DNA from: Pseudisothecium myosuroides
Taxonomy: Eukaryota > Streptophyta > Bryopsida > Hypnales > Lembophyllaceae
Direction: 5' to 3'
NCBI GenBank assembly: GCA_951799445.1
Contig: OX637287.1
Coordinates: forward strand, 54,527,724-54,591,723
Length of the DNA: 64,000 nucleotides
Shown here: piece after piece, positions 9,354 to 51,277 of the stretch
Position numbering within the stretch: position 1 is the first letter of the stretch
How the letters are laid out: each line of letters begins with the position of its first letter
The notes under the pieces: model-generated
What the model was told of the DNA's origin: nothing
The model's database searches: none
What the model saw: only the letters and a program-made list of their open reading frames with translations
Made by a program: the position numbers and the translations under genes

Positions 9354-9675
9354 TAAGGTAGGAGGCTCGAACTCCAATAGGGCATTTTGAACCGAACAGG
9401 ACACATAGGTACATTTTGCTTTTTTCAATTAACCAAAATGTACAAACGATGTACATTCTAGGAGGTGGTCGCTTTTAGAGTCCTATGGCTTTTCAACTTC
9501 AAAATTTCGTAACTAATTCCACAAAGCTCCAAAAAATATGAAACAACTTGGGCCACATGCCATTTCTTCTTGTCTTTCAAGGAAAATTGACTGAAAGATA
9601 TTTCAAGATGTTTTACCTCCCCAAAATTCAGGTTCAGCGCTTAGATGGTCGTCGCTTTATGGACCTCCTACCTTA
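9354..9675. mobile_element. AGGTAGGAGG-ended MITE, copy 1
   Basis: It starts TAAGGTAGGAGGCTC and ends GGACCTCCTACCTTA. The interior includes GGAGGTGGTCGCTTTTAGAG and a segment about gaps in ATGAAACAACTTGGGCC that is shared, often in inverse orientation, with the copies at 18977-19293 and 26129-26445. The TA at each end suggests a TA target duplication, as in Tc1/mariner-type elements, but the superfamily is not proven. Confidence 0.7.
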
Positions 9676-11148
9676 GTTAAACCTTCCTCTCACAGGTTCA
9701 CAACCACAGCACAACTTTTTTTTATTAACTCTATTGTATTGCCTTCAGCAAGCATTAGGCAACCACAGTCAAGCACCAGAGTAACTTCAGTTTTTCAGTG
9801 CCAATGAAAGGTGCTCCCCAGAGTACAAAAAAAGTCACAAGATCCCTGCCACTCAAACAAATTCAGTGGACTTATTCTCGAGATCCACGCAAGATCTCTT
9901 GAATGTGATGCATACAAGTCTGAATGAACAATTTTCACATGTCCAGTTGTGCCAAATGCATTTAACCCTTCATCGTCGAAGGTCCAAACATGCTTAAAAG
10001 CATCCTGCCTTTGCAAGCGTGAAAAGTCTAAATTTCAGTAAGGTATGAAAATCTCAACCATACAATCTTGTTGTGTGCATGTTGTAGATGGTGTGGAACA
10101 AATTTGGGGTCATTTGACCGTATAGATTGAAAGATTATAATGTTTTAGTGTTGGAAAAAGGTGCTGAAATTTTCTTAAAAACACATTTGGAGGTGAAATT
10201 CGATTTCTAAACCTACTCAAATGAAAAAACATCAAATTTCCAAGTGATTAAAAAACAAAATGTAAACTCTTTCAATTGGTGAAAAAAAATATCATTCAAA
10301 TGACTCATTGTGTTTGCAAAATGGATTTGAAATGTTAAAAAACAGTGAAAAAAGTAGCAAAAAATCACATCTATAGCTGAACCTCCTTCTACTAAAATGC
10401 TTCTCAGTCACTCATAACTTCTTGTATCAATGTGAAATTTTAACCACAAAAACTAAACTAGTATGCGCAACTTTTACAACAAAAATTATTGAAAACGGAC
10501 CATGTATGAAGAAATTATGAGCTGCCAAAGTTCACTATAATACAAAAATGTCTGGATTTTGAACTTCGAATTGCTCTCAAACATTCAAAATAGCTTGGAT
10601 TGACATGAAAATTTTACCTCAATAACTAGAGCTTAAGGGAAACAAAACCCAACAAATTTTATTGAAAATGAACATTTGATGAGAAAGATACAAGCTCCCA
10701 AAGTTGCACTCATGACAATGCAGTGTGCTGAACTCAAATTGAACCTGTGAACTTCGAATGGCTTTCACAAACTCAATTCGTCTTGGATTGATCTGAAAAT
10801 CTTACCACACAAACTAGACTAGTATGCGCAACTTTTACAAGAAGTTTTATTAAATTTGGACATCAGATGCAAAAGTTAGAGCACTTTGAATTGGACTGTT
10901 ACGGTGTGTGAGGACACTTTTTGTCCCCTTCGGCGATGAAGGGTTAACCCTTGAACGACGTGGTGGACGTTTGGCGTCTGATGAATGACAGAGCATCCTT
11001 GCATGTGGACAGAAGTGCAACTATTCATCCTCGGAATTTTGTTGTGAAAAGGGAAGGTCTTCTACAGTAGGTCAATTTTCAATGAGTGCTTTTCTATTTT
11101 GTTAAGGCAATGATTCACACGGTAATGGAAAGGGAGGATTTCGAGGGT
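9676..11148. other. repeat-rich stretch without a recognised gene
   Basis: It contains diverged ~180-bp tandem repeats (about 10400-10870) and, at about 10970-11100, a block that recurs at about 61185-61340. No gene is supported. Confidence 0.5.
10400..10870. repeat. diverged tandem repeat, ~180-bp period, about 2.6 copies
   Basis: The landmark AAACTA(A/G)ACTAGTATGCGC appears at about 10453 and 10812, and an intermediate degraded copy (CAATAACTAGAGCTTAAGG) lies near 10620. Each unit also carries GAACTTCGAATTGCT- or GAACTTCGAATGGCT-like and TTGGATTGA words. There is no open frame across the units. Confidence 0.6.
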
Positions 11149-14951: not shown

Positions 14952-16375
14952 TCGACATTCACAATAAGTTACCACTCTCAAAAGACATTATACACTCTGA
15001 CCTCCTTAATCTGATTGCCTAGGGGATTGTCGTAACAACAGTCAAATATATAGTTTGAATGTGTGATAAGATCGAGTGCTACACTCAATGATAGTGTGGT
15101 AATTGTGCAGGATATTCAGGAAGTCACATTAGAGAAGGTCAGAATATAGAGGTCTGGGTGTATTTTGAGTACAAAGTATATATGTATTATCTGATTTAGG
15201 TCGAAATTAATACTCACAGAATGTGGACCACGATCTTAACACTGAATTAAGAAGTTCGAGTTTTGTAAAGATTGGAGCTCGCCCTCAAGATTTTTTTTGC
15301 TCTGGCGGGTTGCGCGCCTTCAACCACATGGCATTTGAAAAGTCTTTCAACGTCGATTCATTCAACTACAAGTAAATTAGCTCCCAGTTTATTAGTGAAT
15401 CTGGCTTCTGGCTAGCTTCTGACTCCCCAACTGAAGTATAACGGGCAGTGGGACCTGGATTGTATCGAAGGACTGACTGCAGTCTAAGGGAAAAAAGAAA
15501 GGAAGAGACTTGCGAGCAGGTATTGCAAGCAGAAGAAAAATTCCAGTCCCTGTCTAGGGAAGCGTGAAACCAGTCAGAGTCGGTTCGTTTCATCAGACCC
15601 CACACCAACGTCCACAGTCCTCAAACCAGTGGGACTGTGGGGAGAGAGCACTGTAGAGTACAGGAATTGCAGGACGGACAGACACTCCTGAAGAATACCA
15701 GCGGTTTGGAAATTGTTCTTCAAAGGTGACGAAAGAGGTTGGTTCATCAGTAATGTACCTGCAACTTGACTGGTGTGCTTGTCGCAATTAAACTGTACAT
15801 TTAAGTATTTTCCAAGCCGCTGTGAAGCTGCATTTCATGTGGAACATATATTGTACCAACCACCTACCCCCTGAGCTTTTTCTGAGCAGTCTGACTGATC
15901 TCGTTGAATTGGAATGTGCGTGATTTCTCATGCGGTGATGAGTTTCTGCAACACGATTCTCCTCACTTGCAGCGGAACTTGCGTGAAGGAGTTCAAATGC
16001 AATAGAAAAGTATCAAGAAACTTGCATGTTGCAAGCACCAGACTGAATTATAGTCGTATTAGCGAAGAAGGGGAGATAAGTTAGCATCATCACCTAGGAA
16101 ATTAGTGTAACTACAATTTTTTTTTTTTTTTTTTTTTTGTGGGAGTTGGTACAATCCAGTAATCTTTCAATCTGCACTAATTTAATATAGTGTGATTTTT
16201 GGTTAATTGGTGTCACAACACTATTACAACAAATCACTTTAGAGTTACCGGCCAAAGACTATGTGGTGAACTGAAGGTGAAGATTCAAAAAGCAACCACA
16301 ACAAGCAAAATCAAGTTATATTGTAACTTTTTTTTAAATCACTTGCCAATAAGATCCAATAAAAATATTTTTTAT
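14952..16375. other. downstream of the peroxidase, no recognised gene
   Basis: Short frames only. A T homopolymer of about 22 bases lies near 16117-16138. Nothing else is recognised. Confidence 0.45.
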
Positions 16376-16393
16376 TTAACCCCTAAAGTTTTT
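16376..16393 (+). mobile_element. solitary TTAA-CCCCTAAAG terminus
   Basis: TTAACCCCTAAAG matches the left ends of the TTAA-flanked elements elsewhere in the window. It lies about 0.5 kb from a piggyBac transposase relic, on the side of that gene's C-terminus, so it may be one end of the parent element. A matching right end was not found; AGATAGGGGTAACA near 18934 is too weak to claim. Confidence 0.45.
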
Positions 16394-16879
16394 GGACTAT
16401 GTTTTCTCTTGAAGTCACAAAATTGCTATTTACTTCTTTTATGAGAGAATTTTGGAATTTTTTTTTCCAACTTTATACAAAGTTTGAAGCTGAAAAGTTT
16501 GATTGAAGTAGGATACAAAAATCTTTCAATCACTAATAGTCTACTAGGGTGGAAATACATTAGCTAATATTTGTTCATTATTTTTAACTCAATTTTTTTT
16601 CTTAGACACTCTATACAATAGAACTGAAGGTGAAGATTAAATGCTTACATGGATACAAAATCATAGTGTCCATCATTTAGCAATGAAAATTCTCACATCA
16701 ACATGCTCATTTACTGTCTCATGTCAAGGTAGAAGATTGATATGATACCCAATTGAAAAAAAAACTTCCTAAAACATATGTTGTACTTTCGGCAAAATGT
16801 ATGGGTCTTGGTTTTTCCATGATTGCACATTACACATGCCATGCACAAGGTGGAAACAAGTGAGTAGCAATAGCCATTG

Positions 16880-17495
16880 GTAGGAGGTGGTAGAAATTAT
16901 TTTTTCTTCTCCCAATTCAAAGAAGCTATACACATAATGTCATCCCAAATTGTTGATGTGTCATGGGCTTTATAGGAACTTTACCGTGTTTGTAGTCATC
17001 CAAATATATTATGAATATGTTTACAATGGTCATGTCCAAAAGAAAATTAAGACACAGTGCCACTACTTGTAAGATTGGTTTTGGCAACAATAACAAGTTT
17101 AGAGTTGGTTTGCAATGTCAAAGTCATGCCTGTATTTTGTATATCACAAGCGAAATGGGAGAAAAATAAAGTTATTATTTCGGGTTGCTCTATTTTGCCT
17201 CGATACTTTTGCAATGGGATATTCACAAGGAAATTGCAAAGGCTTTGTAGTCTTCAAAAGAGGTAGTACCATATGCTTTTTTTTCCCCATAATACAACCC
17301 ATTCTCCTTGACTATTTATACATTGTCTACTCTAATGTCCATTGAGTGCTTCTACTAAAAGAATGGGTGTCTTTCAATGACAAGGAAATTTCTACGCATT
17401 TGTCCTTTAAAGTGCCAGTGGCATAAATTCCCTTCTCTAATAAATCCTTGAAAAGACGGATGGATGCAAAATAGTCGTTCATGGCCACGGCATTA
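16880..17495 (-). pseudogene. decayed piggyBac-type transposase (C-terminal half)
   Basis: Minus-strand reading gives pieces of a piggyBac transposase (DDE_Tnp_1_7 type) in shifting frames. From about 17492 down to 17340 a frame reads MNDYFASIRLFKDLLEKG then IYATGT, the family's DN(Y/F)F-S-LF-LL-GIYATGT block after the catalytic core. Near 17130-17060 another frame reads YTKY..FDIANQL, then CQ.QSYKWWH, equivalent to the family's EYNKYMGGVD..DQ and KWW-motifs. From about 17055 to 16930 a third frame reads LLDMTIVNIFIIYLDDYKHG and then MTHQQF, equivalent to the C-terminal LLD..IVNAYI and MTHL.FR blocks. Stops and at least two frame changes show it is dead. The N-terminal half was not found. The related terminus at 16376 supports a common element. 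Confidence 0.7.
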
Positions 17496-18849
17496 ATTTA
17501 TTTTTGGATTTTGATACAATGTGGAAGTCCATCCTAAAGTAGATAGGCCCAAAAAAATTTCCAACTCAATTGCACCCCCTACTCTGATGTCTACTTTTGC
17601 TCTATTGCATTCCAATGTAGAATAAATTACATTCAAGTTTACATTATGACAAATCAAGTTTGAAATTGGAGATGAAAGGGTTGGAATTCCCCAGCCTTCG
17701 TGGCTTGGCTGCTTTGTAATGTGATTTTTTTGTAATGCAATGATTCGCGCCATTTGTTCAAAAAAAAAGGAGGGTTGGAATTGGGTTGAAAAGTGTCAAT
17801 AATTTTACAAATTCTATAAATACAACCATGTGGTTTATACACATGACAATAATTTCATTTATTATTCTACAATCTTAAGGAACCTTGGGTACGTAGGGTC
17901 TTCGACATTGAAATGGCTCAGAGGACGTTTTTTTATTATATCAAATTAAAAAGACCAAAAAGTTGGGCGAAGACCAAATAAAATAAAAAAAAGATGTAGA
18001 AAATGTTGGATTGTATATTTATTATGAAAAAACTTCATAGTATATATGAAAAAATGAATCACCTATGCATAGTTTTCAAAATCCATTCAAGAAGTTCCCT
18101 CCTTGAATAAAACTAAAAGTCATTTGCAATGCTTTATTCTTAATAAAAAAATTATTATTTTTATTAAAAATCCCAAAAAATTGTGTAGCTTGGCCTATAA
18201 TACATGTATAATTTGAAAATATATATAATTAGTTTTTTAATGTTGTTATTGTCCTCAAAGAATATTCATTTCGTGTATATAATTGCATTTTTGGATTCCT
18301 TGTTAAAAGGACTACAAGAATTTTCTACTTTAAAGCAAATTATAATCCTTGAGATTGGACTAAAATGCATTATAAGTGATTATAATCAAGGCCATATAAT
18401 ACAAGAGTTGCGTAGCCAAGGAGGGAATGTTTTTGGATTGTCATTGCAACCATGTAAAAAATCAACGGAGCTATATTAGTTTCCAAATCATTGAGAATTG
18501 TGTCATTAAGGATGACAATTGGAAGCCATATCTTTTTGCTTTGACCACCTATATTTTTTCTTTCAAAAAGAAGTTGGCCAAAACATAAAGAATATTTTAC
18601 ACTTGTGCTACTTTTTTTACCAAAAATTTGCTCATTGCACAATGCTCATCACAAGCACATTGAAATTATTGCATTTGATTAAATTTTTTTACCCATTTTC
18701 ATAACTTTTCATTCATTTGATCCCATTTTCATCCACTTGAATATCATTTGCTTACATCATAAGTAAATTGTTTTTGTTCTTTGAAACTTCCACAATTTCT
18801 AATCCTCAAACCATTCAACATTCTCATTCAATTTAATTCAACTAAGGTA
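17496..18849. other. AT-rich stretch without a recognised gene
   Basis: Could hold the N-terminal half of the transposase relic, but no frame is recognisable. Frames at 17493-17753 and 18370-18642 on the minus strand have no domain I can name. Confidence 0.35.
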
Positions 18850-18976
18850 GTCTGCTCCTAAAGGGACCACTGAAGCCTACCTAACTCATCATTGACAGTA
18901 ATAGATATTTCAAACAACATGTCACTTGTTCCTAGATAGGGGTAACATTTAGAATACGGTCGCTTTTAGAGCAGAC
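18850..18976. mobile_element. 127-bp foldback element with GTCTGCTC ends
   Basis: Left end GTCTGCTCCTAAAGGGACC pairs with right end CGGTCGCTTTTAGAGCAGAC. A TA flanks each side (18848-18849 and 18977-18978). It is immediately followed by the AGGTAGGAGG element at 18977, and preceded by a partial TAAGG-TAG, suggesting insertion at a TA within that element's border. It is non-coding. Confidence 0.5.
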
Positions 18977-19293
18977 TAAGGTAGGAGGTCCAGAAATGGA
19001 GCATCTAAGCGCTGAAGCTGAATTTTGGGGAGGTAAAACATCTTGAAATATTTTTCAGTAAATTTTCCTTGAAAGACAATTGGTATTGAAATCTAACCCA
19101 AGTCGTTTCATATTTTTTGGACCTTTGTGGAATTAGTTACAAATTTTTGAAGTTGGAAAAAAGTGGTCATTTGTGGTCATCAAAATGGACCACCTCCAAA
19201 AATGTGCATAGGTGGTACATTGGAGAAAGTAAAATGTACCTCTGAGTCATGTTCCATTTTAATGCTCGCTCCGTTTTACAGCCTCCTACCTTA
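18977..19293. mobile_element. AGGTAGGAGG-ended MITE, copy 3
   Basis: Left end TAAGGTAGGAGGTCCAG, right end CAGCCTCCTACCTTA, 317 bp. The interior matches copy 1 (9354-9675) in inverse orientation through AAAACATCTTGAAATATTTT and GTCGTTTCATATTTTTTGG. There is no coding potential. Confidence 0.75.
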
Positions 19294-20527
19294 CTTACCT
19301 TATGTCAAAGCCGACCTTGATGGGAGTTAGGATATCTACCCTTTTGTATTCTGCTCACATGTAAGATAAGCATTAGGACTTGGTGTCAACGTGGGGCACG
19401 GTCCAGAATAGGAAATCAGCCCAAGCAACAGCCCATAATTGTGACACTGGAGTGAGTCATCAGTAAGCTGAAATCTACCCATGGGAACTTTCATGGTAAT
19501 TAATTAATTAATTAATTAATTAATTTTTGGAACTTTCATGGTAAATTTTGTTAGTTGATGGACTTGCATGGCACACACTCCATACTATCCCGGTCTCTTT
19601 GATGGATTTTGTATTGTGGGTATGCTAACCACACACAAAGGGAACCAATGGGAACAAGAATTTGAGAAAGTGCACCCCCCTTTTTATTCAATCCAGGGCC
19701 CAAATGATTGGGACCCAGCCCAAACTGGGCCACATACTGTAACGTTTCAACGGTGAGGGTCGAGCCCGGAACCAGCCTCGGGTGCCACCTTATCGTCAAA
19801 GACGGCGACGGACCTCCCCCCGAGCCGAAAAATCGTCAAACCTGACTCCGAAGCAAAATCGGGGAAAGGCTCGGCACCGAGGGTGGAGGCTCGGCAGTCG
19901 CCTCCTTCCCTCCCTCCCTCCCTCCCTCCCGCTGTGTTTGCTTGAGTTCTGATCGGAGGCTGCTGCTCCTCACGCTGCTGTTTAAAACTGGCTTGCGGGG
20001 GCTAAGAATTGCCGTGTTCCTTGTTCGTGTCAAAATTGAGGTACTCTGGCGTTTTGCTTTTCTCTGTTTTTCCTGTGTCGCGCGCTCCGGAGTGGAGAAT
20101 TTTGGAAGGTTCTTTGCATTTTGAGGACGGCTGTGTTGTTTTTCCTGTGAATGTGCATTCGTTTTTTGCTGTCTGCGCGCTGAGGTTGCGATCGGCTGTT
20201 GCGCCTCGGGGAGGTAAATTTTAGGAGCGGTGTTGAGCGATAGGAGGATTTTTTTGTCTCGTATTGACTCCTTTTGGTCAGGACGAACTTCGTTGTAGAT
20301 TGTTGTTGTTCGTTTAGTTATTGTTTTGTGTGACAATTAGGAGCTTGTTTTTGAACTCTGACTGAAATTGATTTCGAAAGAGTAAATATAACATGAAGCC
20401 TAAAAAAACGATCGGTCGGAACCTTTAATTGTTTTCATTATGTGACTTATTTTTCTGGATGTATCTCGCATAATGTGCACAGGTGAGAACGAGATCTGAG
20501 AAAGGGAATATTGGTAAGCTCGCAGCC
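19294..20527 (+). promoter_or_regulatory. upstream region and 5' leader of the FBPase gene
   Basis: No gene is recognised. The segment from about 19750 is GC-richer and has a (CCCT)n tract at 19901-19930, of the kind often seen in plant core promoters and leaders. CACAG at about 20482 just before the coding exon could be the acceptor of a 5'-UTR intron, but the donor was not identified. Confidence 0.4.
19497..19525. repeat. TTAA/TAAT microsatellite between 16-bp direct repeats
   Basis: About seven TAAT units lie between two copies of GGAACTTTCATGGTAA (19484-19499 and 19529-19544). Confidence 0.85.
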
Positions 20528-23500
20528 ATGGATCACGCTGCCGATGCCATGAGGACGGACTTGATGACTATCACGCGATTCGTGCTCAATGAACAGAGCA
20601 GGTTCCCAGAGGCTCGTGGTGATCTCACAATTCTCCTCAACAATATCGTACTTGGCTGCAAGTTCGTATGTTCATCAGTTAGCAAGGTACACTCATCTAT
20701 TTTGGAGACTTTGATTCCCAATTTCTGGGTATCCGCTAAGAATTTTGAGGCCTTTTCGGTTAAATTATACTGCATGGACAACAGAAGGAAAATAGTTGTA
20801 AAGAATTTTCTGCATTCTTGGCGAAATGGATGTAATCTGCTAAATTATTTTGAAGTTGAGGTCTTGTGCTGTTGTCGTCATGATTGCATTGTCTTCACGA
20901 AATAGGTTTGGAAGTTGTCATACGCTCACCGCAGAGCGTAGAGATACGTCGACTGCCGTGACGACTTTGTAATTGAAGCATGATACAATCATGCCTCACT
21001 TCAGCCGACGTCACGTCCGTTTTGTGAATTTCCAAATGCTCGATCTTTGATACTCTGGCAATTCATGCCTCTTTCCCTGAAGTCTAACAAGTCGTGTGGT
21101 GGTGCGCAGGCTGGATTGGCAAAACTGATTGGATTGGCAGGAGAGACAAATGTGCAGGTAATTTCTGTGCAAAATCGGTCCTTTGTGGTCATTATTAAAC
21201 TGTTCTGACGAAGAATCTGAACTTGATCCTGGTCTGGATGGAGGGAAGGCACATTTAGTGTTCTGACCAAGGCCTTCAATTATTCTGGCTTGTTCCATTA
21301 CTTGAAGCCAGAATAGCTGTCTAAGGCTCTCGTCAGAATACTAAATGTGCCTTTTGAATAGCTTCTTCCATTACATGAAATGAATTTTGGGAAGTTTTTC
21401 TGACGACAGCCCTAGACACTCTCAACTGCTGAGGCGGGGCGTGTGCAACAATTGATAGTGGATATTCCCAAAGGCCTCGTCGATGTGTGAGGAACTGCTT
21501 TGGGTTTTTTGGTGATTAAAAAAGAGAATTGACGGTGAAATCCTGACAAAGCGCTTTGTCGCATGAAGGTTTCGGTGGCATTCTGGATACCGCATAGGGT
21601 TATGCTGACCCTGTCATATTGACCTCGAAGATTGTTAATCTTGAGAGCCAGAAAAAGCAAGATGAATTTGACTTGGAGTTGTGAAATTGCAGGGGGAGGA
21701 GCAGAAAAAGCTTGATGTCTTGTCAAATGACGTCTTCATCAATGCTCTTGTGAGCAGTGGACGCACCGTAAGACTTCAAACTACACTAATTCCACCAGTG
21801 GTTCACCCATTGTCCTATCAGTGTGTTAGGTTACATTAATCTCTTAGAGCTCTTGACAAGGTATCTGTAGGTAGCGGGTTAGGTGGTAGTCAATGCTGCC
21901 CGAGGCGTCAGCAAGGTCTCTCAAAGTGATCCGTAATACCACATTTTCTTGATAATGGGATGTTCTCAATTCGTCCTTACTATCAGGCGTTACATACACG
22001 CATTGGGGTTTAGTCACATTCCATTGATTTTCGTTGCCTTAAAAAACTTCATCAGAACATATAGGTAGCTCATTTTGGAGAAGAATTTTATCATTTGGTT
22101 ATCATTTTCTGATTTTAATTGGTTATCATTTTTCATCTTTTTCTGTTGCAATTTCCTTATGATCGCTTTGTTGCAGAATGTCCTTGTATCTGAAGAGAAT
22201 GAAGAGGCAATTATTGTAGAGAAATCCAAGAGGGGAAGGTACTGCGTTGTGTTCGATCCACTGGATGGATCCTCCAACATCGATTGCGGCGTCTCCATCG
22301 GAACGGTAAATTGTCATTAAAAGTTCTCAGAATTTATTTCATTCATATATTTTCATGCATATAGATTCAGGCAGTGAAGAAAGTACCTTAGACATGCACC
22401 CCTATCTCTCGTCTCTAATATTTGTGTGTTTCATTCTGAGGTTTATTAATGGGATATAATTCCACTTAGCCGTTGCAGTACACTAGAACTCTTTAGACTG
22501 TTGGCTCATGGATGATTAATAAGTTTAAACATGGCAGAAGGTTAAGAAGACACGCACACCAGGTGCAGCTAACAGAGCTCTGAGTAATTTTGCGTATGCT
22601 CATTTATTACTTTTTACACTTGCGATTCAGATTTTTGGAATCTACATGCTCAAGGAGGGAGCCTCTGGCAAGGTTGAGGATGTTTTGCAGCCCGGCACTG
22701 CCATGCTTGCTGCAGGCTATTGTATGTATGGAAGCTCATGCACAGTAAGGATTTTACCTTCTGTCTTGTAAAAGGATTTAATTTTTGTCCATGTGTCTAG
22801 GGTCCTCGAAGTCACTTGAGGAATGAATTTCCAGAGGATTGTTCAGTGTGTAGTTCTATATGTTTTTAATTCTCAACCAAGCATGCGAATTAAGTAGCTG
22901 TATATTTTCTTCCTTAATTGTGAATGTCGGATTTGCACCGCTTGTATAACTGAATTCATTGTCACCCACGGTCCCGCTTAACAAAGTTTTTCTGTAGTTG
23001 GTCTTGAGTACAGGTGCAGGTGTCAATGGGTTTACCCTTGACCCTTCACTCGGAGAGTTCATTTTGACGCACCCGGACATCAAGGTATTGACTCTTGCAT
23101 GATACCCTACTTGCTACCTTGCATAAAGAGATTTTTCCATATCAGGTAGTCTTTAATGATGAAGCGAATGATCTTCTGTAATCCCTTGTCCCTTTTCTAT
23201 AGCCCAATATGAAAGAGCTGATCTCCTCTTCTCACGGATATGAAGATAATTTTATACTAATTATGTCCATAAATTCCTTGGAATTCGAGGGCAGCTACAT
23301 CACTATCCTGCGCTTCATTTCAGCAGCTTCCTAAATTTGATGGGTTTTTTCTACTTTGGCAGATTCCTAAGAAGGGAAAAATTTACTCCGTAAATGAAGG
23401 AAATGCCAAACATTGGGATCGACCTACAACTAAGTACGTTGAGAATGCTAAGTTCCCGAAGGATGGGGCATCACCCAAGTCTCTGCGATACATTGGAAGG

Positions 23501-25426: not shown

Positions 25427-26092
25427 TTAACCCCTAAATGCCCAAGGCCTTTTTTGAGCTTCTAGGAATTTGCTCTAAATTGAATAAAAAGACAACATCT
25501 TGATAGGTTGTGTCAATTTTTTTTGAATTGTAACCATACAAATTCAAACTAGACATGCTAGAGATTACATAGAAAAAGAAAACACAACAATATTGCTTAC
25601 GGATTGAAAGATTATAATATTTGTTCATGAGGGTGTTAAAATTATGAAAATGATTCAAAGCCTTTCAATCCTCTTTTCACATGTCAAATAAAAAAAAAGG
25701 TCACCAAAAAAGTATAAGGTTAAAGAGAACAACATGCATAACCCCAATCAATTTACAGCTTCTCAAAATCTATTGTACAATTTTTTTAAATGAATTTCTA
25801 ATGTGATTTTTTCTCCAAGATCTAGTGCCTCTTTGAGCGGTTCATTTCCAAGAGCCTTCAACACTATGGAAACTCATGATTGCAATGGACACCCTTGCAC
25901 AAAATCTTGAATAGAAAAAACTTAATCATTCATTTTCAAAATTGGATTTTTGATGTTAAAACTAGACTTCAAAAAGAATTTTTTGAAAAATATAAAAATT
26001 GATCAACTAAAAATAGCAACTTGGTTAGGTTTTATTTAACTTCAAAGTACTATCGACACTAGAATTTGGTGCCTCAGGCATTTAGGGATTAA
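25427..26092. mobile_element. TTAA-flanked piggyBac-like MITE, copy 1
   Basis: The left end TTAACCCCTAAATGCC (from 25427) and the right end, reverse-complemented TTAATCCCTAAATGCC (to 26092), match at 15 of 16 bases. The outer TTAA is present on both sides, as for piggyBac target sites. The subterminal CCAAGGCCTTTTTT is shared with the 39415 copy. The element is 666 bp, AT-rich and non-coding. Confidence 0.75.
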
Positions 26093-26128: not shown

Positions 26129-26445
26129 TAAGGTAAGATGTTCTAAAATTGACCAAGCTCTAAAATTGTCATGTACAAGGTACATTTTGCTTTCTTCAAC
26201 GCATCATCAGTGTATCAATAATGTACATTTGAGGAGGTACTAGACACTTTTAATGACCATTGTGCTTCATCTTCAAAAACTTGTAATTAATTCTCTAAAG
26301 GTTCAAAGAATATGAAACGACTTGGATCAGATGCTAATTCCATTTTTCTTTCTATGAAAATTTACTGAAAAATATTATAAGGATTTTAGCTTCCCCCCAA
26401 ATGCAATGAGCTCTTAAAGGCATGTTTTTAGGACCTCCTACCTTA
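26129..26445. mobile_element. AGGTAGGAGG-ended MITE, copy 4
   Basis: The left end is degraded (TAAGGTAAGATG); the right end is GGACCTCCTACCTTA. The interior shares AAGGTACATTTTGCTTT, GAGGAGGT and the ATGAAACGACTTGGATC segment with copy 1. Length 317 bp. Confidence 0.65.
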
Positions 26446-29089: not shown

Positions 29090-32000
29090 ATGGAGTCTCT
29101 TCTCTGCCACAGCCCCAAGCTGCTCCCGCTCCCCCCTGCCCAGCAGCCATGGCGCACGCGCACTCCCCGGGCTTCTCCAGCGTCTGCTCGCTCACAAGCG
29201 CCCCTTCTCGCCCCCTCCGCCACCACCTCCACGTCCCCTGTAAGCCAAGCGCTCATGGTTGCACGCCTTGTGGTCACGTTTTGGGTGGTTCAGTGCTGGG
29301 GCGTCCTTGGATTCGGTTGCTTGCTTTTCTCTTACTATGGCAGCTTGTGTGGGTAGTTGTGGCGTTTTGGAGATTTCAGGTGGGAATTGGGAGGAATTGT
29401 GGACATTGTGGGTAGGGTTTCGGGGGTTGGCACAGATGGTTGGAATGGTGGTAATGCCCAGTCACTGTGTCGCTTGTTTCAGCACTCGTTGTGTGGGAAG
29501 GGTAGTCCGAAGGGAACCACGCCTAATTATCCGCTGGGCGTGGTTTCTACCATTAGAATAGTAAGATTTTTAAATACTCTCGGTACCAAAGGAACGTGGA
29601 TTCCACTGCACGAAAGACTGCGTTAGACTGTGGATACCATATGCAGAATTAGCAGGGATAAAGCTTATTTTTTTGACGATCTAAACCTGATCTGAAAATT
29701 TGAGGTGTGGGGCTCATTCTCAAAACTCAATGTGCTAGATTTTGGAATGTCAGATTTCAGTAGAAGTTGCAATTAGGTGTGGTAACCTAAATAGACCCAT
29801 AAGTATTCATATTCAAAGATCTTTTGGGTGTTTGGTTAACCCCTAAAGGACCAAGAAAGCCCAAATTTTACAGTTTTGAGTATGTTATATGCGTACTTTA
29901 TGTTGTTCATTTTTTCACCAACACATGCATTTCTTTGCTGATTCATTGATACAAAGTTTGACCTCATTTTCGCAGTATGATCAATCGAATGGGTCATTTT
30001 AGAACCATGAATCCTTAGTCTTTTAGGTGTTAATAAACCGTAAATGTCATTGAAGGGACGAATGTGGAATGTGCAGATGCTAGGTTCGCTTGTTGATAGA
30101 GTAACAACTCCTGCTTCTGCCCATATGAGTGAGTCCTGTACTTCTGTACCATTCTAGGAATCTTAGAAATTATGCTGTGCACTTGTATGCTTAGTTCGAA
30201 ATTTCAAAGTGATACACTGATGCGGGCAGTGCCGGTGAATTTTCAGATATGGACTAGCAGGATGCGCTGCTGGAACTTGGCAAGAAGGGCCCCTTTGCCG
30301 AGCGGAACACGCTGTCAAGCGGCAGCGGATCAATCAGAAGAGCCTTTGACCGTGGACAATTCAACAGGTTCTGTATCTTCATTTGCGGGAAAGCAGTCTT
30401 TGAATTCATTTGAGGATCGTCAAAACTCGTTTTTGACGCTTTGTTGTTTGAACATAATCCTCGTTGATTGTTAAACCCTAAAGGAGAAAGGATTCATGGT
30501 TAAGAACTGTTGATCATATTGTGGAAAGTATAATTCAGATGGGGCAATATTGTATACCACCAGAATCAGCGAAGAACATTGCGTGTGATGGTCAAAGAAA
30601 GAACAAAATTGAACAAAAGAATGTTCAATATGAGTTTTGAGTACTCAACATCAGGCCCGATTTGGGCTTCTTAGACTTTTGGGGTTTGCTTGTGTGTTCT
30701 GTTTCGTCTCTTTGAAGCTTTTTAGAGAATTTATTCGCTATAATTCTCAGCTCAAATTTATATGTGTGTCTAACTGTAATGAATTTCGTGTTTCTCTCCA
30801 GATCACAGAAAAATGTTCTATCACGGCTCATTCACGACTGGGTTGTTTGATTTTCGCAGTTTTGGTTGTTGGAGGCGGAGGCGTAGGAATGGAGACTGTG
30901 CGTGCATTGGCAAAGGCAGGGTCGTGGGTTACAGCCTACCAAAGAGGAGAAAAATTTCGCAAAGAGATTGAGGGGCTCGGATCTATGCTTGCCCTGGGCG
31001 ACGTCCTAGATGTTGAGACCATAGAGAAGGTGTTGCGGTCGAATTCTTTTGATGCTATAGTCTGTACTGTTGGTAAGCTTCTTGCTTGGTTCTCGTTTGC
31101 TTGTAATTTAATCAAAGAGACGTGTCTTTCCTCATACCTTGCAGAATAGCCAAGATTAGGAACGCAATAGTCTAGCTTTGAGTATTGAAGCAACCATTAA
31201 TCTCATCTTTGATTCTGGCAATTGAATTTCATTGCCACATGGCTATCGTGACGACCATGTTCTCCATGTTTTTTCCCGAGTTCAGGCTTTCTGTTCTTTT
31301 TTTCCTAATTGGCGCTTGTAAATTTTAAGGCGGTATTTCTTTTCATGTGTTCACAGGGGGAGGAACAACCCAACCAAATGTTGACAAGGTGAAGTCGATG
31401 TTCTAGTTACATACTACAGTAGTTTCCTTCAAATATAATCATTGAGCTGCGACACTGTGTTCCATTATGTCAGTTCAGATTACCAAATTTTGATGTATTT
31501 TGAATGTTTTCTATGAAATTTGCAGGATGGTCCCATCAACTTGGTAAATGCGGCTAAAAAGGCAGGCGTGAAAAGGATCATAATGGTACGTTGACCATGG
31601 TAGATCCTGGTTGTTACACCGATTATGCTGAAACTCTAGTAAACTGAGCACGGATCCTTGTCACCCATAATACCTTAAAATAACATCATCATTTTTTGAC
31701 TGCATCTTTGTTAGCCAAGACGCAGTGTGCATTTTATGACCTGGAAACATGGATGTCGTAAGGTGATGTTGCTGGTAATTTGCGCTGTTTGCAGATTTCC
31801 AGTATTGGAGCTGGAGACAGTGTGAAGGCTGTTGATGACAAGGTATGTACAGCTGGCTTCAATTACACCAAAAAGTAATGTATTGTTAATGAACTTTCTG
31901 TTTTGAAATATGACGCTAAAGAAGTTTTTGGCTATGTCTAGACACTGGCAGTTTTGAAGACCGTGCTAGAAGCGAAGGAGGTAGCTGAAGAGGCTGTGAA

Positions 32001-33369
32001 ATCAAGTGGCCTCGACTACACTATCATTCGCCCTGGGGGTCTATTAGCAGCTGTATGCCATATTTCTGCCCCTGTTTATATTTTAACATACAATTTGCCA
32101 TTGAGTTGTTTTTCCATCTCCTTGAATCTTTTTACAGGGCCTCGTGTGGCGTTTCTCACATTTTGTGGTTTTGGCAGCCTCCTTCTGGGAATGGGATCTT
32201 AACAGAAAATTCTGGTATTGCTGGGCTCATCAGCCGTGGTGACGTTGCTACCCTTGTAAGCAAATTTTTCCTCGTCTTGTAGTTGACTCTACCTGTAGCT
32301 TGTAAATTATGAATGGTGGTGTCTGAGCTTGAATATTTTATGCACCTTGGATCGCTCAATTGGCAGCGATTTTAGCGTACCGATGTTAACCCCTAAAGGA
32401 CACGGGGTCTCTCCTTTTTTTTTAAAATTTGCAAAGATTCACTGAAAAATACAATATCGAGGAATAATTTGGAAGGACGTTATGAATAAAAGTTGTAGAT
32501 TTTGAATTTTAGATTGTATCTGTACAGTTAATCCACCATATTTATTGCTGCTAGTTTAGTATACTATTTGAAACTTAAATTCTTAAATTCCTTCTAAATT
32601 ATATTCGAAAGATTAGTGTTGATAATTAAAGTGAAATTTGTTGGAATGGATTAGAAATGTGATGATTTCATTGTAATAATTCTTAAAAATTCTCTTGTTG
32701 TTTAAATCTGCAAACTCATGTTTTCAATGCTACTTTAGAACTGGAAGTCCGCTCAAGCAAAGTTCCACATACTTCTATTTCCACAATTCTCTTGAAATAT
32801 GCATTCTAGTAATTTCAAATCTAACTGTTGCATAATTACTTATTGTGATTGAGTTCCTTCCCAAAAAATGCTTTCGATTATGAGGATTTGAGGTTTGAAA
32901 TCAACCATCAACCCAAATTGGTTTGATGCATCTTTAGGCGTTTAATTATGCCATCACTTCACGAGAGATCTGTTTATACTGAGAAATGTATTTAAAGTTC
33001 TGTGATCTTTGGATTTGGAATATTCATTCTATGGCATGATTCATTCATGCGGCTGAATTTGAACTATGCTTCAGATCATGAAAGTTTTGTTCAACAAGAA
33101 GTCGTATCGAAAGATTTTGTCAGCAATCGATCAAGACAAGGTACCCTCACGTGATTGACTCCACTTAGGCTACTTTGTCATTCTAGCTCTCTCAACAATT
33201 GGCTTCAGGGTCTAGGCTCAAATTGTGTTCTAAGTAAAACATAATCAGATCATTTATTGCAGTTTGTTTGATTGAGATGGAATTAAAGCTTATCTTGGTG
33301 AGATGTGTCATTGTGCAGTTGCTTCCTCCTGCGGCCTCACTTGACGGCGTGGAGCTCTTGACCCTTTGA
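29090..33369 (+). CDS. atypical SDR, NAD(P)-binding Rossmann protein, probably plastid
   Basis: Probable NAD(P)-dependent epimerase/dehydratase-like or isomerase-like protein; substrate unknown. Ten exons join in phase: 29090-29239, 30247-30367, 30860-31072, 31357-31388, 31526-31585, 31795-31842, 31942-32052, 32178-32255, 33075-33140, 33319-33369, giving 309 aa. Residues 1 to about 85 are rich in Ser, Pro, Ala and Arg (MESLLCHSPK...), as in plastid transit peptides. A glycine-rich nucleotide loop VLVVGGGGVGMETVRALAKA follows (about 91-110), then a strand-turn DAIVCTVGGGTTQPN, then RIIMISSIGAG, and TIIRPGGLLAA as in atypical SDRs; the classical YxxxK is not clear. The first-exon ATG is inferred; an alternative lies at 29149 in another frame. 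Introns 1 and 8 hold TTAA elements. Family call firm, function open. Confidence 0.85.
29836..30033. mobile_element. TTAA-flanked piggyBac-like MITE, copy 2, in an intron
   Basis: The left end TTAACCCCTAAAGGAC and the right end, reverse-complemented TTAACACCTAAAAGAC, match at 14 of 16 bases. TTAA is on both sides. It is 198 bp and lies in intron 1 of the Rossmann-protein gene. Confidence 0.75.
32386..32945. mobile_element. probable TTAA-flanked piggyBac-like MITE, copy 3, in an intron
   Basis: The left end TTAACCCCTAAAGGACAC is perfect for the family. The best right end, reverse-complemented TTAAACGCCTAAAGATGC, has an extra base and two or three changes. It is 560 bp, AT-rich, inside intron 8 (32256-33074) of the Rossmann-protein gene. 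Confidence 0.5.
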
Positions 33370-38409: not shown

Positions 38410-39414
38410 ACGTATTCTTAGCTGAAAATTATTATCATAGATACCGCACCAGTTTTATCCAGAGTTGGGACACTCAGACAGTTGACTTCAACGCAAAAAG
38501 TTGCTGCTGAATGTATCCAGTGATTGCAGTTGTCCACTGAGGCATCGTCAGTTTGTAGCCGTGTAACATAAATTCATCCTCCACATTCATTTTTTGTATC
38601 TAATGTGACAAATTTCTGGTTACATTTACTAAAGATTGATCACAAAGTGCATGTGTATAGTTGTATGTTCTTTATTGATTTGCCACTTCATCTCCCCACT
38701 TAATTACATCCACTGTAAACATATTGAATTTCGTCGATTGAGAATGAGGAGGAAATCCTGGATTCATATTTCTCTGGTATTACTTAACTTTTGCTGTGCA
38801 TGAATTGCACACCAATGTTTAATACTTCAAAATTTCACTGTAATTAATGTAGAGAATCCTTTTGCAAAATTAGGATGAAGAATCCTACTATTATCATTAG
38901 AAAATTCTTGGCCACTGGACGCAATGTCATGGGTAATACAAAATTTGGAACCAAGTGGTGGAAGTAATAAAAAAATTTAGGCACTGTTTCATCAAAATGT
39001 AAATATCAGCTCAGAGTTTTAATGTTGAAAATTGAGACTTATGAGCAGTTCTTGAGCTGAAGGCAACACATCAATCTTGAAAGTTAAAGTGACCCTTATA
39101 GCCGAAACATTATCGAAGAATTATACTGTACTTGAGTTCAATTAGCAGATTGAATTCAGGATTCAATGAATGTCAAACTATGTAGGTGGTAACTCATTAA
39201 ATTAGAAAATATTCTTGAATTTGCTGAAAGTGGAAATGGAAGTGGAAATGAAAGTGGCCCTTTGTTATTCTATTCTAGAAAGATATAAATGTGATTCTTT
39301 TCATTTGTCCAGCCTTCCGGCTTGGCTGGTACTTTGGTTCTTTTTAATGTAATGGTTCTCCATTTGTTATAAAAAAAAAGAAAAAAAGAAAAGAAAGATA
39401 TAAATGCATTTGGA
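38410..39414. other. 3' region of ORC6, no other gene
   Basis: No coding frame supported. A short GGAAATGGAAGTGG repeat lies near 39228-39256. Confidence 0.45.
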
Positions 39415-40036
39415 TTGACCCCTAAAGGCCCAAGGCCTTTTTTCTGCCAAAAAACACTGAAAATTGCCATTTCTATAGCAAAGAGTAAAAAAATTTGAAA
39501 AGTGTTTCTTTTTCACATCTAACTATAGGATTTTACATCTAACTAGTATGAGAATGTATGGAAAAATTTCAGAATTTTTGACCACATAGATTGCAAGATA
39601 TTTGCATTTAAAGTGAAAAAAACAAATTTTTTAGCACATTGAAGGACTAGATTTTTTGACTTTTAAACATTTTTAACTTCAAATTTTTGCACTACATAGT
39701 TTTGAGCTTTAAATCTTTATAGTAGAGAATTGAATTGAGAGTCTAGGAATAAAAAAGAAATTCAAAAAAACTTAATTTTCATTCTTAAGAAAATTGTTAA
39801 GTAGAAGTAGGGACAAGATAGAAGGAAAATCTAAAATATTAATATCTTTTAGATGGAATTAAAATGCACTAATCCCAATGGTGAGATTGTTCTAGTAAAT
39901 AAAATAAACCATGCAGATTTATTTTTATTTTAAATTGCAGAAATTGCATTCAGAAATGAATCTTACAAGTTATTTTTTTAAAAAGATACTCTAATTGTCC
40001 GAGAAATAAGATTGTCCATAACTTTCTCATAACAAA

Positions 40037-41871
40037 TCCATACGTTAAGACAAGCTGTTTGTTTTGTTTTGTTTTGTTTGTCATGTTGAGATCTCCCGGA
40101 TCGTGCATCCCCTAGTGGCGTGCGTGGTACCGTTGGAAAGCCCTCGGCGGGGAGGGGTGCACGGGCTTTGCATTAGAAGAATTTTGAGGCCTGCAAAGGG
40201 CCGTTTCAGGGCTGTTCCCGCAACTGGGAACAGTTAGAATATTAAATTAATTTATATATATATATATATATATATACAATTTAAAAATTTAAAAAATATT
40301 AAAAAATTTAAAAATTTAAAAAAAAAATTTAAATTTTTTTTTTTTATTATTTTCTGACGTGGCACTCGCGTGACCACGACAGATTACTATTCCCAGGGCG
40401 TTCCCAGAGTTCCCAGGGCCAGATAACTCTCAGTCTCTTGGAGGCCTCGAAATTCTTCTAATGGTTTTGTTGTGTTTGGAGTTACGGTGCAGTAGTTATT
40501 GAATTTCAAAATATTTATGGATCTAAAAATTAGGAAATTACTTTTACTTTGATTTTGATCGCGTTCTTTGTACCGTTAGAAAGCTCTTGGCGAGGAGGGT
40601 GCATGGGCTTTGTTTCGTGGCGTTTGGACCTACCATGTGAAAATTATGGATTTTTGAGTTATAGGCCAATGGCACAGGGCTACACTAGTCCATACCTTAA
40701 CAGGCTGTTTTGTTTTGTTTGTCACGTTGGGATCTCCCGGACCATGCGTCTCTTGGGGGCGTGCTTGGTACCGTCGGAAAGCCCTTGGCGGGGAAGGGTG
40801 CACGGGCTATGTTTCATGGTGTTTGGACCGACGGTGTGAAAGTTATGGATTTTTGAGTTATTTTGGGTTCTGAAAAATTAGAAAATTATGCTAAATTATC
40901 TTTTGAATCGTGAGTCAATTGGTCAAGTTTTTGGTACCGTTTTAAAGCCCTCGGCGAGGAGGAGTTTACGGGCTTTGTTTCATGGAGTTTGGACCTACTG
41001 TATGGTGAGAAAGTTATAGATTTTTGAGTTATTTTTGGATCTTGAATCATGCTAGATTATGCTAAATTTTGTATCTTTTGAATGATGCATCAATTGGTCA
41101 TGTTCTTGGTACCGTTGGAAAGCCCTCAACGAGGAGGAATGCATGGGCTTTGTTTTGTAGCATTTGGACCTATGGTGGGAAAGTTATGGGGTTTTGAGTT
41201 ATTTTTTGTTTTTAAAATGACTTTTACTTTTTTTTTGGATGTGGCAACGGCACAGGGCTACACTAGTATCTTCTATTCAGTTTGCATGGTATATTCTTTG
41301 TTTTGTTTTGTTTTGTTTGCCATGTTGAGATCTCCCTTACTATGCGTCCCCCCAGTGGTGTGCTTGGTACCATCGGAAAGCCCTCAGTGGGGAGGGATGC
41401 ACGGGCCTAGTTTCATGGCGTTGGGACTGATGGTGGGAAAGTTATCAATTTTTGGGTTATTTTTTGTTCTTAAAAATTACTAAATCATGTTAAATTATGT
41501 ATCTTTTGAACCGGGTGTGAAATTCTCACTTTCTTGGTACCGTTGGAAAGCCCTCGGCGAGGAGGGATGCACGGGCTTTGTTTTGTGGCATTTGGACCTA
41601 CGATGGGAAAGTTATGGATTTTTGAGTTATTTTTGGTTCTTAAAAATTACTGAGTACTAAATTATGCTATACTATGTATCTTTTGAACCGTGTGTCAATT
41701 TGTCACATTCTTGGTACCGTTGGAGAGTCCTTGGCGAGGACGGATGTATGGACTTTGTTTCGTGGCGTTTGGACCTACAGTGGGAAAGTTATGGGTTGTT
41801 CAGATATTTTTGGTTTTTTAAATGACTTTTACTTTTGTTTTCAGTGTGGCAACGGCACAGGGCTACACTAG
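40037..41871 (+). mobile_element. array of three tandem Helitron-like units
   Basis: The insertion starts TC after an A and ends CTAG before a T, with no target duplication, as Helitrons do. Each unit ends GGCACAGGGCTACACTAG (40688, 41266, 41871). A weak hairpin, GTGGC-AAC-GGCAC, lies 9 bases before CTAG. Unit 2 (40689-41266) starts TC directly after the CTAG of unit 1 (40037-40688). Unit 3 (41267-41871) has a changed start. Each has a head with TTTTGTTTTGTTTG(T/C)CA then GATCTCCC. Inside are ~170-bp subrepeats around GGTACCGTTGGAAAGCCCTC, eight copies in all. No Rep/helicase gene is present, so it is non-autonomous. Confidence 0.7.
40171..40463. mobile_element. CATTAG-ended foldback MITE nested in Helitron unit 1
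   Basis: The left end CATTAGAAGAATTTTGAGGC and the right end, reverse-complemented CATTAGAAGAATTTCGAGGC, match at 19 of 20. It interrupts a Helitron subrepeat after GCACGGGCTTTG. The core includes a (TA)n run (about 40253-40276) and A/T tracts. It is 293 bp. Its ends resemble those at 26952-27233. Confidence 0.75.
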
Positions 41872-42160
41872 TCCAAATGAAATGAATCAAAGCTTTCAAG
41901 ATAGACAAAAGTATAATCTATGAGAAAAAAAAATTAATTGCAAATTGTTTTTTTGCTACTGGTCGTCCCTTGTTTTGATTCATTACTTATTTCGTCATAA
42001 CTTTTGTTCCCGGGCACCAATTGTAAGAAAAATATATATTACCACAAAGTTTATTCATTTTTCTATCTTCAAAAAGAAAATTCAAAAAAGCACGAGAAAA
42101 ATTCAACCCGTAGTTACTTGCCCGAAATCCCATTTGTCCTCCAAAGGAACAACGGTGACT

Positions 42161-43363
42161 ATTATTCTATTTCAAAACTAGATTAAATATAAAGAAGTAG
42201 GTAGCATCTAAAATTGTTATCTAACAAAAAAGAATATATTGGAATAACATTTCTAGAACCCTACACCATTTCAACTTTAAAAATTCATAATTAATCCCAC
42301 GAAGGTCCAAAATATGAAACCCCTTGAGTTAGATGCTAGACCTATATATCTTTCAAGGAAAATTTACAGAAAATTATTTCAAGGAGTATAGTTTCCCCAA
42401 AAAATGTGATCCACTAGTAAATAGTTGGTTTATGGACCCTCCACTTCAAGTGTATTTTTGGATTACAGGTAGTGAGTGTGTTAAGAAATTGAAAACCTAC
42501 ACTCTTTAATGTAGGAAATTCTAATTTAAAATTGAAATTTCAGACCAGGGCTAATTTTGTTATCACTAAATTTCATCATGCTGGGTATTTCTCAAAATTT
42601 TGTATGATAAGTTACTCCTACGATGAATCAATAGGTACAGTAGCATGCTGAATTCTCGTAGGGATCTGGGAACTGGGGACATGGGAGCGTTCCCGTCGTG
42701 GATCTTCCTCGTCACAGGAGATTTGAACCTCTTCCATCGTCGCAGAAGATTTGAGGCATTCCGACGCCATAGCCACACTGTGTTGACGACGGAGCTCCGA
42801 TTTCACTATGAGGAAGCGCAGCCTGAGCTTAGGCGGTCGGCCTGGTCCGCTTAGCCACACCTCTCGGTCTCCATTTGCTCGCATTCCAGGGTTCGCGACA
42901 TTGTCCTCAATACATTTGATCATGTTTCCAAATTTTCGATGGCAATTGAATAGCGCTTTCGATTCTCCTCATTTTGAGCTTTTATGTGCATGCGAATTTA
43001 GAGTTTGAATAGAATACTAGTTCTGATTTGAATGTCAGTGAACTCATGGAAGACGATTATACGGCGACGTTGTCCTCTCAACAGTTGATCCTATTCCCAA
43101 AATTTGCTAGCAATGGATAAGCGCTTCGATACTCCTTAGATTGATCACTTCTTTGCTTGCGATCTTAGATTTTTAATAGAATATTGTGATTTGGATTTCA
43201 GTGACCTCATGGAACAGGCTGGTGCCGGTGCTGTGAAGCGCTTAATTAATATACCTGCACTACTTAGCAGTTCAATGTATTTGCTCACGCTTGCTTTCTT
43301 ATCTATGTCTCGCGCTTGCGTACTAATGTCTGACAGGTGCCTTGTCGTTCTGGTCCCGTGAAG
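42161..43363. other. upstream region of the PRD3/PAIR1-like gene
   Basis: About 42265-42450 is a remnant of the AGGTAGGAGG family (ATGAAACCCCTTGAG, TTATGGACCCTCCAC). From about 42640 the base composition becomes gene-like; the first exon probably lies here. One candidate is the ATG at 42808 (MRKRSLSLGGRPG), another at 43211 (MEQAGAGAVK), but neither splices convincingly. Confidence 0.4.
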
Positions 43364-48248: not shown

Positions 48249-48420
48249 CACTAGAAGAGAAAGGGGTGTTTTAAGTAGTGTCCTAGACATCATGTCTTTT
48301 AAGTAACGTCTTTTAAATAAGTTTTTAAGTAAAATTTTACTTAAAAACTTACTTAAAAGACGTTACTTAAAAGACATGATGTCTAGGACACTACTTAAAA
48401 CACCCCTTTCTCTTCTAGTG
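48249..48420. mobile_element. near-perfect 172-bp palindrome with CACTAG ends
   Basis: The left arm from CACTAGAAGAGAAAGGGGTG to TTTTTAAGTAAAA is complementary to the right arm down to CACCCCTTTCTCTTCTAGTG. Arms are 86 bases with about one mismatch and no loop. CACTA-type ends suggest a minimal CACTA-like foldback element; no clear 3-bp duplication is seen (TAA versus AAT outside). A transcript would form a long perfect hairpin. Confidence 0.8.
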
Positions 48421-50334: not shown

Positions 50335-51277
50335 TTAACCCCTAAAGGACTGTTGTCCCTTCGGGGGACAAATGCGTTTTCGGGCAGGTACCTACGGGCT
50401 GAAATTTTCTTGTGATTTTTTGAAACTTTTTTTGGAGATAGAAAAACTGATAAGCTTTGTGGGAATATAATTTTTTTCACAATCGGTGCCCGGGAAAAAA
50501 AGTTATGACCAAATAAGCTCAAAAACAGGGGACGGCGGGCAGCTCGGGCAGCAAAAAAAAATGGACAAAAATTTGAATTTTTTTTTTTAATATTTTTTTT
50601 CTCATAGATTATATTTTTTTCTATCCAGAATGCTTTGATTCATTTCATTTGGATATGTTATGAGAAAGTTATGGACATTCTTGTTTTTCGGGCAGTTAGA
50701 GCATCTTCTTGAAAAAAATAACTTGTAGGATTCATTTCTGAATGCAATCTTTCAAATTTTTCAATTTTTTTTTTTTTGCATGGTTTAGTTTAGTTGCTAG
50801 AACAATCTCACCATTGGGATTAGTGAATTTTAATTCCATCTAAGAGATATTAATATTTTAGATTTTCCTTCTATCTCGTACTTACTTCTATTTAACAATT
50901 TTTTTAAGAATAATAATTAAGTTTTTTTTAATTTTTTTTTTTTTTCTAGACTCTCAACTCGATTCTCCTCTATAAAGATTTAAAGCTCAAAACTCTGTAG
51001 TGCAAAAAAATTTAATTAAAAATGTTTAAAGTCAAAAAATCTAGTCCCGCAATGTGCTGAAAAACTTGTTTTTTTCACTTTAAACGCAGATATCTTGCAA
51101 TCTATACGGTCAAAAATTCTGAAATTTTTTCCACACATTCTCATACTAGTTAGGTGTAAGATCCTACGGTTAGATTTGAAAAAAAAACATTTTTCAATTT
51201 TTTTTACTGTTTGCTATAGAAATGGCAGGTTTCACTGTTTTTTGGCAGAAAAAAGGCCTCGGTCCTTTAGGGGTTAA
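50335..51277. mobile_element. intact TTAA-flanked piggyBac-like MITE
   Basis: It is bounded by TTAACCCCTAAAGGAC at the left and its perfect reverse complement at the right (16 of 16). TTAA occupies the outermost four bases on both sides, the insertion site of piggyBac elements. It is 943 bp including both TTAA. Subterminal GTCCCTTCGGGGGAC (left) is itself a hairpin. There is no open frame of note, so it would need a transposase from elsewhere, such as the relic at 16880-17495. It separates the two copies of the receptor-kinase upstream sequence. The broken copy at 39415-42160 is its closest relative here. Confidence 0.85.

Follow-up and report, generated by a model that had tools for sequence, protein, structure and literature searches.

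A decayed piggyBac-type transposase in a plant genome, its intact relatives and their TTAA-CCCCT ends

The 64,000-nt stretch of Pseudisothecium myosuroides DNA analyzed here (the window) carries on its minus strand the remnant of a transposase gene, beyond its C-terminal side a transposon-type terminus, and elsewhere several small non-autonomous elements (Table 1). The earlier note on this DNA had claimed a piggyBac-type transposase relic made of three blocks, in order on the minus strand and in different frames. The first block, YFASIRLFKDLLEKGIYATG, belongs to the longest matching open piece, one of eight pieces submitted to Pfam, which alone matches DDE_Tnp_1_7 (PF13843) with 26.6 bits (cut-off 22.4, E 4.5e-6). 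The second block (17077-17057) had been written as QSYKWWH; its first W is a TAG stop, and the true reading is QSYK*WH. A second frame, open over 17117-16929, contains the third block, LLDMTIVNIFIIYLDD...MTHQQF, and a fourth, the Cys-rich C-terminus in a third frame, had been overlooked. The order and the strand of the blocks are therefore as described and the third block does change frame, but the first two share one.

A single frame that reads through stops joins blocks 1 and 2 and yields 188 residues (X at stops) with 33 bits and an E-value of 5.1e-8 against PF13843; once the first block is removed, the 150 residues left gave no family in a Pfam scan. When the 188 residues were compared with about 5.8 billion proteins, one protein among 75 candidates reached E <= 0.01. 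This protein, P0001, is a 351-aa PF13843 protein with 47% identity to the relic (E 6.4e-41). P0001 has 231 relatives at E <= 1e-5; the best 120 of the 231 all contain PF13843 (120/120), and in tblastn all 120 match window positions 16753-17533 on the minus strand, while the rest of the window remains without any match to them at E 1e-3. A profile of 507 columns built from these 120 proteins, aligned with stops and frameshifts allowed, scores 276.4 bits on the relic (111 identities to the family consensus in 246 columns, within columns 246-500, with 6 stops and 5 frameshifts), compared with a mean of 19.5 and a maximum of 25.7 bits for 30 dinucleotide shuffles of the same DNA. The frame-aware translated search against DDE_Tnp_1_7 suggested earlier is thus significant, and together with the Pfam score, the P0001 match and the 120 concordant relatives it bears out the claimed transposase relic.

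The 'LFKDLLEKGI' block could also be read as a pentatricopeptide (PPR), a kind of protein built of tandem 35-residue repeats, or a chance resemblance, with no transposase involved, since the first block alone, compared with the PDB, gives seven matches, five to PPR proteins and two to other non-transposases, the best reaching 3.9e-7 summed over repeats. In none of the seven, however, does a single stretch pass alone, Pfam reports PF13843 and no PPR family, and the similarity runs on through 246 profile columns to the Cys-rich domain. The P0001 match, the agreement of all 120 relatives and the profile score against shuffles refute this reading, which we regard as practically without probability, and leave the block as part of a transposase.

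The relic is a defunct descendant of this protein family, not a working member, and is unable to make a working enzyme. The first catalytic Asp falls in its missing half, so that the relic lacks the full set of three Asp characteristic of the piggyBac superfamily; the second catalytic position is Asn (MNDYF, where P0001 has MDNYF), a replacement that marks the copy as dead; the third Asp is kept, and the next Asp after it is Asn. Part of the Cys-rich domain is retained. The N-terminal part of the profile, run on both strands of 15800-16740 and 17480-22000, reached only 16.8-21.3 bits, in comparison with a mean of 20.5 and a maximum of 25.0 for 15 shuffles of one of these stretches, and no left end of the relic was found. 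On the N-terminal side lies a SINE-like insert flanked by an 11-bp direct repeat, GGGTTGGAATT (17679-17689 and 17772-17782), with similar copies at window positions 39309-39381 (77%) and in the relative locus L017 (79%). Stops, frameshifts, the changed catalytic residue and this nearby insertion indicate that the relic is old and dead. Its age is also indicated by its nearest DNA in the genome, nine places besides the relic itself, all short and weak (best E 7.3e-11). A repeat at 17906-18414, with a 75% match to the relative locus L031, was considered as further relic sequence and rejected: it recurs inverted elsewhere in L031, its match lies outside the end-like sites of that locus (1960 and 7329), and it was taken as a separate dispersed repeat.

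Table 1. Features of the window that relate to the relic and to elements with similar ends.
Feature	Position	Strand	Basis
Decayed piggyBac (PF13843) transposase, C-terminal half, from second catalytic motif to Cys-rich domain	16733..17488	-	Frameshift-aware profile
Open piece with the YFASIRLFKDLLEKGIYATG block, longest of the relic's matching pieces	17330..17497	-	Alone over PF13843 curated cut-off
C-terminal Cys-rich (zinc-finger-like) domain remnant, ACVMCNHGKTKTHTFCRKYNICFRK	about 16890-16733	-	Third frame, fourth block
Probable right (C-terminal-side) element end	16376..16466	+	TTAA, CCCCTAAAGTTTTTGGACTATG tip, then subterminal AAAATTGCTATTT similar to the right ends found in intact relatives
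SINE-like insert with A-tail, N-terminal side of relic	17690..17771	+	11-bp direct repeat and similar copies
943-bp non-autonomous element	50335..51277	+	TTAA and CCCCTAAAGGAC ends; both ends match family F
198-bp non-autonomous element	29836..30033	+	TTAACCCCTAAAGGACC / TTAACACCTAAAAGACT ends
666-bp non-autonomous element	25427..26092	+	TTAACCCCTAAATGCCC / TTAATCCCTAAATGCCT ends
Long non-autonomous relative of 50335-51277, inverse orientation	39415..42170	-	Far tip eroded, end approximate
Single terminus TTAACCCCTAAAG, no recognised partner	32386..32398	+	End pattern

The earlier note had also proposed a search for intact copies in the same genome, and such copies were found. The 388-Mb assembly (222 contigs; the window lies at 54.5 Mb of contig C1) contains at least 116 PF13843 matches, all 116 that were scored, from 899 candidates, being over the cut-off. 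Many of them lack stops and have open frames of 400-1,091 codons, and the relative loci are spread over eleven large contigs (16.9 to 55.0 Mb). Twenty PF13843 loci were retrieved with flanks. Five of them (family A, L017-L021) are 99.89-99.98% identical over about 5.42 kb, and four (family D, L024-L027, out of six places with equal score and frame) are 99.96-100% identical over about 5.63 kb; the copies of both families lie on different chromosomes and stop abruptly into different flanks. In two of the five A copies the open frame is shorter, with 901 and 895 versus 1,056 codons. The three copies of family E (L028-L030) are 98.2-98.9% alike. The delimited elements are 5.1-6.6 kb long with stop-to-stop frames of 758-1,091 codons (589 in E). 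Each of the seven open frames tested contains one near-complete PF13843 domain, and all seven intact elements examined (A and D-I) have the three catalytic Asp and the Cys-rich domain.

Given the near identity of copies on different chromosomes, families A and D appear to have moved recently, in a plant, although this kind of transposon is known mainly from animals. The dispersed near-identical copies are an indirect, sequence-level hint at transposition of the relatives, and the lineage may be active at present. The A and D frames of L017 and L025 (1,056 and 1,091 codons) carry about 580-620 residues before the transposase domain; this N-terminal part has RG/GRG repeats and gave no Pfam family at E 0.01. 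Among 58 pattern matches in viral contigs there was no relative. In prokaryote genomes, 95 pattern matches included one weak piggyBac-like locus (L042:4001-4216, 33%, query residues 210-285) on a contig labelled as a Deltaproteobacteria MAG, which is probably eukaryotic contamination of the MAG.

Comparison of the retrieved loci revealed both borders at 13 of the 20, and all of these borders consist of TTAA and CCCCT. Nine border pairs (five in A, four in D) were confirmed by comparison of copies, and the four pairs of the single copies F, G, H and I by pattern including TTAA only; the seven loci without both borders comprise the three of family E and four others (L022, L023, L031 and L034) at which the exact patterns could not be paired. 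Family A is bordered by TTAA-CCCCTCAGGGCCGG...CCGGCCCTGAGGGG-TTAA and family D by TTAA-CCCCTAAATG...CGTTTAGGGG-TTAA. For the single copies the pattern-only ends are CCCCTAAAGGACCAA on both sides in F (L032), CCCCTCAAC in G (L033), CCCCTAAAGGACC on the left and CCCCTAAAGTTCCATGACTATG on the right in H (L036), and CCCCTAAAGGACC on the left and CCCCTTAAGTTCTTTGACTATG on the right in I (L035). At L031, a pair of TTAACCCCTTGAGG ends with 2 mismatches occurs at 1960 and 7329. Family E has the right end CCCCTAAAGGACCAAGG, and no left end with <=2 mismatches was present in 2.5 kb more upstream. A candidate left end at L028:1213 was rejected since the similarity of the three E copies continues past it, as far as the compared DNA extends; a left end that is defined by pattern only can thus be a nested piece. 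The TTAA that closes the D copy on C1 (L024:7081) is itself followed by a CCCCTAAAGTTCCATGACT end, so apparently one element landed in the target site of another.

CCCCTAAAGG stands on one or both ends of the elements close to the relic, namely E, F, H and I and four of the five retrieved copies of the closest subfamily. The intact copies closest to the relic thus have CCCCTAAAGG ends adjoining TTAA, as the earlier note had expected, and its refuting case, intact copies with unrelated ends, did not arise. The plant telomere unit is CCCTAAA. The core of CCCCTAAAG, the tip at the relic, equals this unit, and the ends could accordingly be pieces of interstitial telomere-type repeats. What is found instead, in the ends examined, is one unit directly after TTAA that adjoins a longer stretch of subterminal sequence in common, on either border of elements with a transposase. 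The longer patterns have thousands of copies, and their reversed controls none. The exact element borders refute the telomeric origin, whose probability we consider negligible, and the tips are treated below as transposon ends.

The TTAA terminus that had been placed at 16376, beyond the C-terminal side of the relic, is present exactly and is of the right-end type. TTAACCCCTAAAG occupies 16376-16388, and the window contains 15 matches to this 13-mer with <=2 mismatches versus 2.05 expected, a number reached by none of 100 shuffles. The relic has a short conserved tip, CCCCTAAAG, and one TTAA, the other end being lost. In six of the eight relatives tried (L040, L038, L037, H, I and F), the alignment puts the relic's tip at position 0 of the right end, with scores above all 20 shuffles for L040, H, I and F but not for L037 and L038. 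L039 and E gave no alignment at the right tip. A CTGCCATTT-like motif is located about 45-60 nt from the tip in the right ends of E, F, H, I and the small element 50335-51277; the relic has it in altered form, and the element end at window position 61157 is without it. The right-end pattern TTAACCCCTAAAGTTNNNNGACTATG was found 1,663 times (814 + 849) in the 388-Mb genome; as it was written from the relic and H, and the relic fits it exactly, its frequency and not the fit is the evidence. The end type of the small elements (MITEs), TTAACCCCTAAAGGNCNNNGG, was found 6,767 times (3,395 + 3,372). Together the two patterns have 8,430 exact copies, and the reversed control of each gave 0.

We infer that the terminus at 16376 belongs to the relic copy itself. 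The interval from the coding end to the terminus is about 357 bp in the relic versus about 1,160-1,650 bp in the eight relatives tried, a difference that calls either for a deletion or for a terminus from another insertion, namely a separate small element of the same end type beside a real piggyBac relic. The great abundance of such ends, a 3' interval that is too short by about 800 bp or more, and the fading of the likeness to the relatives beyond about 90 bp from the tip would all suit a separate element. Such an element would, however, need a partner left end, and none with <=2 mismatches lies between 16376 and the coding remnant; moreover, the end at 16376 has the right type, orientation and gene side. 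We thus hold a separate element to be unlikely, if worth keeping in mind, and prefer the terminus as the relic's own right end.

The position of the relic among its relatives was examined in a tree based on 211 columns. The alignment comprised 108 rows (100 relatives, seven intact elements and the relic); of the 120 relatives, the 20 with fewer than 240 aa had been omitted, and rows with at most 60% of the columns filled were removed before tree construction. The relic groups with P0001 and P0015 with support of 0.91 (0.33 for the relic and P0001 alone), and this group is near E and F with support of 0.87. Five copies of the P0001-like subfamily were retrieved, and four of them end on the right in an exact TTAACCCCTAAAGG, located about 1.3 kb beyond the protein match; the fifth, L041, has no right end of this type within the 2.7 kb examined. 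The signal is mixed, as the protein tree places the relic near E and F, whereas in tip sequence it comes closest to L040 and the H/I type.

The earlier note had linked the MITEs to a probable autonomous parent. The link holds for the intact cousins, family F and its relatives, and not for the relic copy. With F, the element 50335-51277 shares both of its ends, over 205 nt (73%) and 101 nt (75%); with E it shares the right end, over 219 nt (77%). Its long relative 39415-42170 has grown through internal repeats of about 170-177 bp, with tandem units at 40764-41823, and is a MITE turned minisatellite. Of eight MITE-end loci retrieved elsewhere in the genome, three had paired ends, enclosing elements of 374, 593 and 603 bp and with an additional neighbour of 929 bp, and five were without a partner end within reach.

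Several other features were observed in the window. An inverted repeat at 48249-48420 has two 86-nt arms that are 99% complementary, with no spacer, and forms an almost perfect 172-bp palindrome; it is either a fold-back element of recent origin or an artefact of the assembly. Dispersed repeats of another family, about 130-190 bp in length and with 77-87% similarity, occur at 9490-9677, 18975-19171, 26252-26445 and 42269-42402, as well as in eight of the retrieved relative loci. A 131-bp hairpin-like repeat at 18848-18978 has 21-nt arms, TAGTCTGCTCCTAAAGGGACC and GGTCGCTTTTAGAGCAGACTA, that are 86% complementary. Two of six open frames of the window gave matches over a cut-off, one for a legume-lectin receptor kinase and one for a peroxidase, a gene content that points to a plant genome. 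The RbcS plant marker PF12338 had no match in the genome and none in its control.

We conclude, with a probability of roughly 0.93, that what survives here is the degenerate right half of an autonomous DNA transposon of the piggyBac superfamily, in a plant genome that contains intact relatives. Homology, domain order, TTAA/CCCCT ends, shared end sequences and near-identical dispersed copies are seen directly. The relic retains the 3' coding part and the probable right end TTAA-CCCCTAAAG, and has lost the N-terminal half, the left end and, if the tip is its own, probably at least some 800 bp before that tip. The intact relatives encode a DDD transposase with a Cys-rich domain between TTAA-CCCCT ends. 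Binding of the transposase near the ends, cutting at the TTAA border and insertion at TTAA constitute the established piggyBac pathway. Judging from the anatomy of the elements, the transposase of this lineage would bind subterminal motifs, for which the CTGCCATTT-like sequence of the right end is a candidate site, cut the TTAA-CCCC junction and insert at TTAA, and MITEs with the same ends could be mobilised in trans.

By itself the relic is ordinary, and its value is that of a pointer to this lineage. The balance of the data tilts slightly toward a living and diversified plant piggyBac population, which would comprise several families, some with practically identical copies dispersed over four or five chromosomes (or six, going by match score), would have moved thousands of MITEs and so been a major shaper of the genome, and would stand apart from animal elements by long N-terminal extensions and CCCCT ends. 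The scale and freshness of piggyBac in this plant are unusual. With intact near-identical copies and more than 8,000 matching ends, native piggyBac activity in a plant becomes directly testable, and the lineage would permit studies of how plants silence piggyBac and how TTAA-directed MITEs spread.

PiggyBac is a genetic tool and has been described mostly from animals; the catalytic Asp residues of the Trichoplusia ni (T. ni) element are D268, D346 and D447. The elements described here share with T. ni piggyBac (IFP2; 6x67/6x68) a DDE_Tnp_1_7-type transposase with DDD-type motifs, the Cys-rich domain, an apparent TTAA target and C-rich ends. They differ in their distant sequence (intact H, 2.5e-20 over about 390 residues), in their larger size, the T. 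ni element being 2,472 bp long and encoding 594 aa (PMC10140906), and in tips that begin with CCCCT. Among solved structures, the best match of intact H is to the Myotis piggyBat (9c0f; 1.7e-28), an animal element whose low activity has been studied (PMC11707139).

In plants, piggyBac-like elements are stated to occur in passages that give no detail (PMC8086355, PMC10140906, PMC2874221), and a review counts PiggyBac among the plant superfamilies (PMC10794571). For the seed-free fern Ceratopteris richardii, a repeat table classes 1,230 fragments (122 kb) as PiggyBac, an account of counts, with element structure, ends and activity absent from the passages on it (PMC6890710). A paper devoted to native plant piggyBac elements was not among the matches listed in a literature search that mostly covered work outside subscription journals. 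The kind of element is thus already known, and the scale, freshness and ends of this lineage look undescribed within the literature searched. The coral CMITE elements are likewise small, non-autonomous and tied to piggyBac-like parents; they were defined by internal conservation in the account given (PMC2872659), whereas the link here is made by both ends and 100-200 nt of subterminal sequence. The 5' tips listed for animal piggyBac elements are CACTA, CCCTC, CCCTT and CCCAT (PMC10813416); unlike these motifs, the CCCCT tips of the present lineage, seen at 13 of 13 loci, have four C before T.
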